IMG/VR virus record: IMGVR_UViG_3300012920_000060
Location: 1-50,514 of that record
From: a virus
Direction: 5' to 3' (one strand)
DNA: 50,514 nucleotides
Below the pieces are notes generated by a model. The model was not told the DNA's origin. It saw nothing but the letters and a program-made list of their open reading frames with translations, and did not search any database. Each line of letters begins with the position of its first letter. Within the stretch, counting starts at the first letter, position 1. Positions 16,936-35,960 of this stretch are shown piece after piece. The translations under genes were made by a program, and so were the position numbers.

Positions 16936-16957
16936 ACCTAGTCAATAGACTGTTCGG

Positions 16958-16983
16958 AAAGGGGCCTTCGGGCCCCTTTTTTT
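16958..16983 (+). terminator. Rho-independent terminator after gene 23
   Basis: GGGGCC, a TTCG tetraloop, GGCCCC and a run of seven T form a textbook terminator; the A-run before the stem can pair with the T-run, extending it. It lies about 22 bp after the gene 23 stop. Confidence 0.95.
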
Positions 16984-22716: not shown

Positions 22717-23112
22717 ATGAAAGAATTAGACATCAGACATTTTAAGCTTATAAACGGAGATGATATCATTGGCCTAGTAGCAGATAGGAATGATGATAAC
22801 ATTATAGTAGAAAGACCTTTGGTAGTTAGTGCAACTCTCTTGGGAGGGTTTCAGTTTCAACCGTGGTTTCCATTCTCCGATAATAAAAACTTTAAGATTA
22901 TGAAATCTAATATAATAGAGCATGTTGGTGTAGCAGATGATGTGAAAGAAACCTATGTACAATTTGCTCTTAAAATAAAAGAAAAAATAACAGCGCCAAC
23001 TAAGTTTAAATCAGACGAAGAAATCCTTGCTGATTACGAGGATCGTTTAATTAATCAAATGGCAGAAGAGGGTATTATTCCTGAGGACTCGACTAAAAAG
23101 ACTATACACTAA
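22717..23112 (+). CDS. Conserved marine T4-like protein, LSm-like N-terminus
   Basis: 131 residues from the ATG at 22717 (an ATG at 22693 lies inside uvsW). The N-terminal 30 residues, FKLINGDDIIGLVAD and NIIVERPLVV, have the strand-turn pattern of small LSm/Hfq-like barrels, followed by QFQPWFPFSD. A paralogue with the same order of motifs is at 35673. The C-terminal 50 residues are acidic. Function unknown; an RNA- or ribosome-associated role is speculation. A chance or real TATAAATA (22699-22706) lies just before it. Confidence 0.6.
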   Translation: MKELDIRHFKLINGDDIIGLVADRNDDNIIVERPLVVSATLLGGFQFQPWFPFSDNKNFKIMKSNIIEHVGVADDVKETYVQFALKIKEKITAPTKFKSDEEILADYEDRLINQMAEEGIIPEDSTKKTIH

Positions 23113-23139
23113 ATTGTATATTCCCCTCCTCCGGGATAC
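23095..23139 (-). ncRNA. Candidate minus-strand small RNA (about 45 nt)
   Basis: The minus-strand promoter at 23146-23174 should start RNA near 23139. The first hairpin is UCCC/GGGA with a GGAGGAG loop, exposing a Shine-Dalgarno-like or CsrA-like GGA sequence. It is followed by the perfect stem TATACA/TGTATA (23103-23120) and then, on the minus strand, GTCTTTTT, a weak intrinsic terminator. The RNA overlaps only the last codons of the gene on the other strand. All plus-strand genes here point the other way. Existence is predicted, not shown. Confidence 0.45.
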
Positions 23140-23145
23140 TATAAT

Positions 23146-23174
23146 ATTATACCATATAAAATGCTTCGTGTAAA
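23146..23174 (-). promoter_or_regulatory. Early-type promoter on the minus strand
   Basis: Read on the minus strand: TTTACA (23174-23169), exactly 17 bp, TATAAT (23151-23146), with TGG adjoining the -10. This is the same consensus as all ten plus-strand early promoters. No minus-strand gene follows, only the small RNA candidate. Confidence 0.75.
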
Positions 23175-23210
23175 CAACTTTTTTCATATTTAAGAAAAAA
23201 AAAATAATTG

Positions 23211-23239
23211 TTTACTTTGAGTGAAAACTGTGGTATAAT
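23211..23239 (+). promoter_or_regulatory. Early promoter of gene 55
   Basis: TTTACT (23211-23216), 17 bp, TATAAT (23234-23239), preceded by CTGTGG. A short leader with GGAG precedes the ATG at 23261. It should express the late sigma factor early or in mid-infection. Confidence 0.85.
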
Positions 23240-23260: not shown

Positions 23261-23830
23261 ATGACTAAAGCAAAAAACAAAGCACACTATGTCAACAACA
23301 AAGAGTTTTCTGAAGCGGTGTTCGATTATGCCATCCAGGTAAAAGAAGCTAGAGAAAACAATTCCTCAATTCCTAAAGTTACAGATTACATTGCAAGATG
23401 TTTTATTAAGATAGCCGAAGGCTTATCCCACCGACCTAACTTTGTCCGGTATACGTACAGGGAAGAAATGGTAATGGATGCAGTAGAAAATTGTTTAAGA
23501 GCCATAGGTAATTACAATATAGAAACTGCTACAAGGACAGGTAGACCAAATGCCTTTAGTTACTTTACTCAAATTTGTTACTATGCATTCATCAGAAGAA
23601 TAACAAAAGAGAAAAAGCAACAGGATATTAAATTTAAGTTTATAGAAAAAATGGGCATAGAAGATTTTACAGCCCTTGGCATGGACGAAGCTGGAGCAGC
23701 CGAAACTATGCAATATGTTGATACATTAAGACAAAGGATTAGCCAGGTCAGAGTTAAAGATACTGCTATAAAGGACTTTGCAAAAAAAGAAAAGGAGAGA
23801 GAAAAATTAGAGCTCTTTATGAAACCATGA
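23261..23830 (+). CDS. gp55: Late-transcription sigma factor gp55
   Basis: 189 residues, homologous to T4 gp55, a minimal sigma factor that recognises TATAAATA late promoters. Recognisable regions are DYIARCFIKIAEGLSHRPNF and YREEMVMDAVENCLRAIGNYN (region 2-like), then AFSYFTQICYYAFIRRITKEKKQ. The many TATAAATA sites before virion genes are its expected targets. Its gene comes directly after the early promoter at 23211. The sliding clamp (28908) and clamp loader are also encoded, the partners for clamp-activated late transcription. Confidence 0.94.
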   Translation: MTKAKNKAHYVNNKEFSEAVFDYAIQVKEARENNSSIPKVTDYIARCFIKIAEGLSHRPNFVRYTYREEMVMDAVENCLRAIGNYNIETATRTGRPNAFSYFTQICYYAFIRRITKEKKQQDIKFKFIEKMGIEDFTALGMDEAGAAETMQYVDTLRQRISQVRVKDTAIKDFAKKEKEREKLELFMKP

Positions 23831-31023: not shown

Positions 31024-31400
31024 GTCCATTTGATTACTTAAACGCAATAAATCTAACCAAGAAAGATATCATGGTTGATGATATTGCAGAGAAAGAATAT
31101 AATTCATTTATAATAAATCGTGGATTATCATTCTTTACTGATACAGTATTGTATGCAAATGAAATGAATAGAAACCATCATATAGATAATCGTCTTCAAT
31201 TTGATTTTTTTATAAATATAATTAGAAAGAAAAAAAGATTCACGAAGTGGATTAAACCGCAAGAGATAAGTAACTTAGAACTTATCAAAGAATATTATGG
31301 GTATAGCAATCAAAAAGCTAAGTCCGTTTTATCATTATTAAGTGATGTTCAAATTGAAGAAATGAAACAAAGGATTAACAAAGGTGGACACAGAAAATAA
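31020..31400 (+). CDS. gp62: Clamp loader small subunit gp62
   Basis: 126 residues, shorter than T4 gp62 (187) but typical for marine relatives. SPFDYLNAINLTKKDIM at the start, then NSFIINRGLSFFTDTVLYANEMN, and KRFTKWIKPQE mark the family. It lies between 44 and regA as in T4. The ATG overlaps the upstream stop, keeping production tied to gp44. Confidence 0.92.
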   Translation: MSPFDYLNAINLTKKDIMVDDIAEKEYNSFIINRGLSFFTDTVLYANEMNRNHHIDNRLQFDFFINIIRKKKRFTKWIKPQEISNLELIKEYYGYSNQKAKSVLSLLSDVQIEEMKQRINKGGHRK

Positions 31401-31821
31401 CTCAGTAGCCAGTTGGCAACCAAACCAAATGCTTGAGGTGGTTCTTAACGAACCAGATGATTTCTTAAAGATTAGAGAAACTCTTACACGTATCGGTGTA
31501 GCATCAAGAAAAGACCAAAAACTTTTTCAATCTTGTCATATATTACACAAACAAGGTAGATACTTTATAGTTCATTTTAAAGAACTATTTTTATTAGATG
31601 GAAAGCCATCTAATTTATTAGAGAACGACCTACAACGTCGAAACACAATTGCTACATTACTAGCCGACTGGGGATTAGTAAACATTATTGAACCCGATAA
31701 TGCAAAAGACTTAGCTCCTCTGAGACAGATAAAGGTTATACCTTTTAAAGAAAAGTCTCAGTGGGAACTGTGCCCCAAATATAATATTGGAAATAGTAAT
31801 AATGCAGAAAAAAGTAAGTAA
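31384..31821 (+). CDS. regA: Translational repressor RegA
   Basis: RNA-binding repressor that blocks ribosome sites of many early phage messages. The body, LEVVLNEPDDFLKIRETLTRIG, SCHILHKQGRYFIVHFKELF, DWGLVNIIEP and WELCPKYNIGN, is very close to T4 RegA. A GTG at 31384 with AAGGA 8 nt upstream is taken as start and gives 145 residues; the T4 protein starts at the position of the ATG at 31429, which has no ribosome site here. The gene overlaps gene 62 by 17 bp. Confidence 0.93.
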   Translation: MDTENNSVASWQPNQMLEVVLNEPDDFLKIRETLTRIGVASRKDQKLFQSCHILHKQGRYFIVHFKELFLLDGKPSNLLENDLQRRNTIATLLADWGLVNIIEPDNAKDLAPLRQIKVIPFKEKSQWELCPKYNIGNSNNAEKSK

Positions 31822-32681: not shown

Positions 32682-32711
32682 GAGGGGGGTATTTTCCCCC
32701 CTCATTTTTTT
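32682..32711 (+). terminator. Rho-independent terminator after hsp20 unit
   Basis: GAGGGGGG, loop TATTTT, CCCCCCTC, then A and seven T. The T-run continues directly into the -35 box region of the gene 43 promoter, so the hsp20 unit ends exactly where the polymerase unit begins. Confidence 0.95.
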
Positions 32712-35652: not shown

Positions 35653-35672
35653 ATAACATTATGGAGAAAAAT

Positions 35673-35960
35673 ATGGATTATAAATTAGTAAGGTTAAGCA
35701 ATGGAGAAGAAGTCATTGGTAGAGTTGAAGTAAACGAAGAAAACAACAACATTACAATTACAGATGGTCATGCTCTCTTTGCACCAGAACCTGGTAAGAT
35801 TGGATTTATTCCTTTCATGCCATATACTAAAGCAAAAGATGGAGTAACTATTGATATGAAATTTGTTATGTTTATAGTGGATCCTTTGGATTCTTTAGTA
35901 GACCAAGTAAGGTCAGTTAATTCTGGATTGGAAATACCTGATAGGAAAATAATGACATGA
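35673..35960 (+). CDS. Small LSm-like conserved protein (paralogue of 22717 gene)
   Basis: 95 residues from the ATG at 35673, which has GGAG 6 nt upstream; the earlier ATG at 35661 contains that site. YKLVRLSNGEEVIGRVEV and NNITITDGHAL have the same pattern as FKLINGDDIIGLVAD in the 22717 gene, and IGFIPFMPYTKA matches QFQPWFPFSD. Function unknown. It opens an operon with a MazG-fold enzyme and a PrimPol-like protein (ATGA overlap). Confidence 0.6.
   Translation: MDYKLVRLSNGEEVIGRVEVNEENNNITITDGHALFAPEPGKIGFIPFMPYTKAKDGVTIDMKFVMFIVDPLDSLVDQVRSVNSGLEIPDRKIMT

Follow-up and report, generated by a model that had tools for sequence, protein, structure and literature searches.

In phages several systems are known that resemble, in part, the locus described here. 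The T4-like cyanophage S-PM2 produces CfrI, a non-coding transcript of about 225 nt whose antisense target comprises a homing endonuclease gene and psbA (PMC2984593, PMC5931967). In T4, the origins oriF(uvsY) and oriG have a promoter whose transcript serves DNA metabolism and are associated with the uvsY/uvsW neighbourhood; they consist of MotA middle promoters together with an AT-rich unwinding element (PMC3016281). Divergent and antisense phage promoters are also intergenic promoters placed backward, with a transcript antisense to the neighbouring gene. The early and middle transcription modes of cyanomyoviruses are noted to be unresolved (PMC2984593).

The element described here is a backward promoter in front of gene 55 which shares these likenesses and differs from all three. 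Unlike CfrI it is a family-wide promoter upstream of gene 55, and unlike the T4 origins it carries a start-site repeat and a purine tract, neither of which is mentioned in their description (PMC3016281). From the divergent and antisense promoters it is set apart by its family-wide occurrence and by the covarying structure of its start region. A search of the open literature found no report of a promoter or an RNA upstream of gene 55.

The locus and its backward promoter

The window, that is, the whole stretch of DNA analysed, is a 50.5-kb virus record from a T4-like ocean phage. The nearest annotated record to its gp55 in the phages collection is that of Phage C48C1 (59% identity), which is listed as Kyanoviridae. 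The gap of interest lies downstream of uvsY, uvsW and the gene of a small Sm-fold protein, and is followed by genes 55, 47 and 46 (Table 1). The window's real genes all lie on the plus strand, as the original prediction had stated.

Table 1. Features of the gene 55 region, and the RegA gene, in the window
Feature	Position	Strand	Basis or remark
Sm-like protein gene; 3' end overlapped by the predicted minus transcript	22717..23112	+	phmmer 3by7, E 2.5e-4
Proposed terminator, TATACA/TGTATA then GUCUUUUU	23095..23120	-	judged not a conserved terminator
Purine tract GGAGGAGGGGAA then TATAC	23116..23132	-	column counts; GGAG/GAGG enrichment
5' hairpin UCCC-GGAGGAG-GGGA	23122..23136	-	stem covaries in the window's clade; loop sequence varies
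Presumed transcription start, G, 7 nt past the -10	23139	-	predicted from the -10 position
Sigma-70-type early promoter, TTTACA-N17-TATAAT with extended TGG	23146..23174	-	motif match
Gene 55 own promoter, TTTACT-N17-TATAAT, divergent from the minus promoter	23211..23239	+	motif match
Gene 55, late sigma factor	23261..23830	+	phrog_234, 5e-52
RegA gene	31384-31821		RegA encoded in the window

The protein encoded immediately upstream of the gap has, by prediction, an Sm fold (AlphaFold pLDDT 86; Foldseek match to 3by7 with a target TM of 0.89 and an rmsd of 1.3). Two proteins of the window, this one and that of 35661-35960, are Sm-like and resemble 3by7, whose structure carries the description Sm/LSm-like RNA-binding. 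The C-terminus of the upstream protein is Thr-Ile-His, and the His is nearly invariant among its relatives. Elsewhere in the window strong GC-rich stem-loops are found 3' of the major capsid gene (16952-16980, GGGGCCTTCGGGCCCC-T7) and 5' of the DNA polymerase (about 32683-32705, GGGGGGTATTTTCCCCCC), and these look like genuine plus-strand terminators.

On the minus strand of the gap, the -35 hexamer TTTACA (23174-23169) is separated by 17 bp from an extended -10, TGGTATAAT, which ends at 23146; both hexamers and the spacer, for which 16-18 bp is expected, fit a sigma-70-type early promoter. The window holds 10 copies of the motif TTTACA-N15-19-TATAAT, where shuffles predict 0.34; nine copies are on the plus strand, each just 5' of genes, and the one at 23174-23146 is the sole minus-strand copy. 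The minus-strand early promoter that had been proposed in front of gene 55 is real, with the same motif as the nine plus-strand promoters, and no gene follows it. The spacer is 17 in all copies compared, both in the window's clade (38/38) and in cyanophages (75/75), and a GU at the presumed start site is common to the relatives. The RNA predicted from G23139 begins GUAUCCCGGAGGAGGGGAAUAUAC.

Its orientation is exceptional among the strong intergenic promoters, of which one in 10 is antisense to genes in the window and 1/20, 1/14 and 1/5 in three contigs of relatives (113, 135 and 60 kb). In the window and in each of the three contigs that single antisense promoter is the backward element, and all the remaining ones are co-directional with the genes. 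The 6 bases 5' of the -35 (23160-23220 and the corresponding regions of relatives) are more alike between the backward promoter and the gene 55 promoter of one phage than between phages (2.82 vs 2.28 +- 0.16 in the window's group), so that the two promoters form an inverted repeat. AATTGTTTAC is common to several early promoters of the window, which suggests a phage-specific promoter flavour.

Conservation among relatives

Regions upstream of gene 55 were collected from IMG/VR with four gp55 queries and from named isolates, giving 287 distinct regions. The search for the element in related phages, put forward with the original prediction as a check, found it in 79-99% of the four main groups: a minus promoter with a score of at least 10 was present in 95% of the window group, 79% of the group of locus L069, 81% of the HTVC008M group and 99% of the cyanophage group. 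Among dinucleotide shuffles 4-6% had one.

The score was at least 10 in 227 of the 234 loci that have the Sm-like gene upstream. With an unrelated gene at least 60 nt upstream it was at least 10 in 14 of 22 and at least 9 in 21 of 22, the latter score being also reached by 23-38% of shuffles. In most of these loci the purine tract and TATAC are retained, and the element ends near the stop codon of that gene, about 30 nt from the -10. An exclusive tie to the Sm-like gene was rejected, as the element also persists beside other upstream genes. Whichever gene adjoins, the conserved segment stops at its stop codon, some 25 nt beyond the presumed start. Since the segment is kept with unrelated upstream genes, the self-contained unit comprises the -35 and everything from there to this point. 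A transcript extending beyond this point would be antisense to any gene located there.

Gene 55 itself is able to do without the element, as shown by the many short-gap copies that lack it (17 of the 27 loci classed as "other" with a gap below 60 nt). The distance between the -35 hexamers of the minus and gene 55 promoters ranges from nearly overlapping up to about 60 bp, and simple promoter competition is therefore not constant. The element is shared by phages infecting cyanobacteria, SAR11 and Methylophilales, and this speaks for a role intrinsic to the phage and not for one host-specific partner. Given that a backward promoter with a structured, G-rich start recurs in almost all of several hundred relatives, it is almost certainly functional.

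The start region

In the window's clade a hairpin spans about 15 nt after the start. Its stem has a mean of 3.63 bp, compared with 2.26 +- 0.29 after swapping arms between relatives, a control which preserves column composition and not relatedness, so that the significance is approximate. Compensated stems include UCCC/GGGA, UGGC/GCCA, UGUC/GACA, CACC/GGUG, GUCC/GGAC and AACC/GGUU. The hairpin originally predicted is present in the letters and its stem covaries in the clade, but the GGAGGAG loop is not fixed, being replaced by GGGG, AGGG, UGG or GGGA.

HTVC008M-like and L069-like phages have an inverted repeat which adjoins the -10 and has the start at its centre (GGTCTATGTAGACC, AACGGTGTCCGTT and CCGGTATGTCCGG are examples). 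Stems of at least 5 bp were found in 11 of 40 HTVC008M-like and Melnitz-like copies, where arm swapping predicts 1.9 +- 1.3, and in 16 of 57 L069-like copies (3.0 +- 1.5 expected). The start region of cyanophages reads AACC-NTGTAAG-GGTT, with too little arm variation for a strong covariation test. In these and in the HTVC008M-like phages the repeat spans the start site and differs in sequence from the GGAGGAG hairpin. As the 5' arm precedes the presumed start in the clades with a start-centred repeat, either the repeat would act as DNA or opposite-strand RNA, or transcription would start nearer the -10 than is usual. The choice of strand by G-U vs A-C pairs was not decisive once swapping controlled composition, and strand-specific folding energies of the element were weak on both strands. 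The gene 55 plus promoters gave no inverted-repeat excess of this kind in any group, and a start-site repeat as a general feature of these promoters was rejected.

The start region of the window's clade is further characterised by a purine tract and GTATAC. In 69 relatives, window-like or neighbouring, purines predominate at positions 14-26 past the -10, and among 57 distinct tracts GGAG is found in 36 and GAGG in 42, with 20 in shuffles for each. The pairing predicted between the tract and the anti-Shine-Dalgarno is -9.4 kcal/mol, vs -7.6 in shuffles. This enrichment of Shine-Dalgarno-like words is judged to be real but clade-limited, several HTVC008M-like copies having no GG at all; the specific GGAGGAG loop that had been likened to a Shine-Dalgarno is unsupported. 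No targets complementary to the tract were found above chance elsewhere in the window.

Copies away from gene 55

Most loci were fetched through gp55, and a constant position beside gene 55 can be claimed only within the reach of three pattern scans. In these, exact patterns of the L069, window and cyanophage types were run against all IMG/VR independently of gp55, and the matches lay beside gene 55 in 33 of 33, 51 of 71 testable and 50 of 66 cases, respectively; an exclusive tie to gene 55 was thereby rejected. The remaining window-type matches are backward as well and separate a head-closure gene (phrog_218) from one that has a late promoter. This second backward copy is found in L369, L371, L384, L400, L402, L408 and others, which are part of the window's clade, and is flanked by a gp4-like head-closure gene and a TATAAATA late-promoter gene (MASLFDTLQ...). 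Locus L550 has no element at this site.

The remaining cyanophage-type matches are mostly sense-oriented into a CpeT-like gene (phrog_488). In L445, L454, L478, L485 and L498 the promoter is TTGACA-17-TAGAAT-AACCATGTAAGGGTTCA, sense-oriented before the CpeT-like gene and directly 3' of a phrog_627 gene whose stop overlaps the -35. Whole-record scans gave two further copies (L509, L514), sense-oriented before small ORFs, and in L531, of the L069 clade, GTATACC is followed directly by a gene starting with ATG, into which the copy reads. Since the cyanophage start motif is also sense-oriented before cpeT and other genes, the element is not purely an antisense device.

Possible roles of the element

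The reading that we favour, with a probability of roughly 0.4, is that of a dedicated backward early promoter which, with its start region, acts in cis on the level or timing of the following gene. A cis role seems most likely because only the promoter and about 25 nt are kept, because the orientation is backward at both the gene 55 and the head-gene site, and because the hosts are unrelated. Host sigma-70 RNA polymerase would read the promoter backwards from the front of gene 55, and selection retains the promoter and about 25 bp of start region (the inverted repeat or 5' hairpin, the purine tract and GTATAC) and nothing further. The structured, G-rich start perhaps causes promoter-proximal pausing. 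Backward initiation would oppose polymerases arriving from upstream genes, possibly as a roadblock, and would in this way determine the level or timing of the gene that follows, which is gene 55 here and a head-region late gene in some relatives. Transcription, pausing and cis action on gene 55 are inferred. A broader proposal, possible but rather doubtful, is that these are members of a family-wide promoter class of Kyanoviridae-type phages in which the region from the -10 to about +9 must be able to pair with itself through covarying arms, and which serves, backward beside gene 55, as a built-in regulator; the self-pairing structure would then act during initiation, as single-stranded DNA of the bubble or as nascent RNA.

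It is unlikely that the product is a trans-acting small RNA with a purine-rich loop that pairs with the 16S rRNA anti-Shine-Dalgarno or is recognised by an RNA-binding protein, perhaps the Sm-like protein of the neighbouring gene. The covarying 5' hairpin of the window's clade, the enrichment of GGAG and GAGG with its stronger predicted pairing, and the predicted Sm fold of the adjoining gene product are consistent with such an RNA, but the conserved body is only about 25 nt, and less in cyanophages. The discrete RNA of about 45 nt that had been predicted is unsupported, as terminator-like hairpins are found downstream in 27 of 245 loci (11% vs 9% in shuffles), which is no enrichment, and the fold of the 46-nt RNA is ordinary (z = -1.14; 28 of 200 shuffles equally good). 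The proposed terminator can be read in the letters yet is neither conserved nor enriched; its stem is nearly all A-U/G-U (-2.4 kcal/mol) and, like the U-rich end, lies for the most part opposite the final codons of the Sm-like gene (KKTIH-stop). HTVC008M-like and several cyanophage copies are moreover without the purine tract, the repeat straddles the start in those phages so that the RNA would be unable to form it, and the element is retained away from the Sm-like gene. Rfam, searched at gathering and permissive thresholds, gave no small-RNA or cis-regulatory family for the element, and 20 relatives likewise had no match at gathering level. As for the binding of CsrA or RegA, the single hairpin, with loops that are often GGGG, AGGG or UGG, does not resemble a CsrA-sequestering RNA of the CsrB/RsmZ type, in which ANGGA stands in the loops of several hairpins, and the known sites of RegA are AU-rich leader sequences. 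Translation of a small minus-strand gene, with the purine tract as Shine-Dalgarno and an RTG start at the His-stop end of the upstream gene, is very improbable. An RTG does lie 6-12 nt past GGAG/GAGG in many window-like relatives, and the copy in L531 leads straight into a gene. However, the antisense ORF from the His-stop was rejected, as it has one codon in six relatives (L006, L008, L033, L037, L072, L079), reaches up to 90 codons elsewhere without similarity, and is not conserved in sequence. HTVC008M-like phages keep the His-stop but not the RTG spacing, cyanophages have no start codon, and no conserved ORF following a Shine-Dalgarno and start codon was found.

The element might also serve replication, its purine-rich transcript start staying in an R-loop and priming leading-strand synthesis as at oriF and oriG. 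T4 origins do prime from promoter transcripts, and UvsW dissolves R-loops (PMC3016281); the element is part of the uvsY-uvsW-55-47-46 cluster and yields no mRNA, and its G-rich start gives way to A/T in the window's clade. We nonetheless consider this role decidedly unlikely, because the GC/AT skew at four-fold sites shows no switch at the element (23.1 kb), the HTVC008M-like start is not purine-rich, and copies are found elsewhere and before cpeT; of the features of a T4-type R-loop origin only the promoter was recognised. An operator is similarly improbable. A dimeric phage regulator would bind the start-site inverted repeat and switch promoters, the arms co-evolving with the regulator, and it fits this idea that the symmetric repeat exactly abuts the -10, that in some cyanophage genomes two or three promoters share the motif, and that AACACTGTAAGGGTT is identical in both copies of one of them. 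Against it, the arms are anywhere from 2 to 7 nt or more apart and differ even between close relatives, which is unusual for a protein site, and the repeat is displaced downstream in the window's clade.

The product of gene 55 is the sigma factor which switches on the late genes, and the T4-like phages of the ocean time these genes without the MotA/AsiA of T4. The backward promoter fixed next to gene 55 in phages infecting cyanobacteria, SAR11 and Methylophilales is an overlooked, directly testable candidate for late-gene timing, and its covarying start-site repeat would constrain a bacterial promoter in an unusual way.
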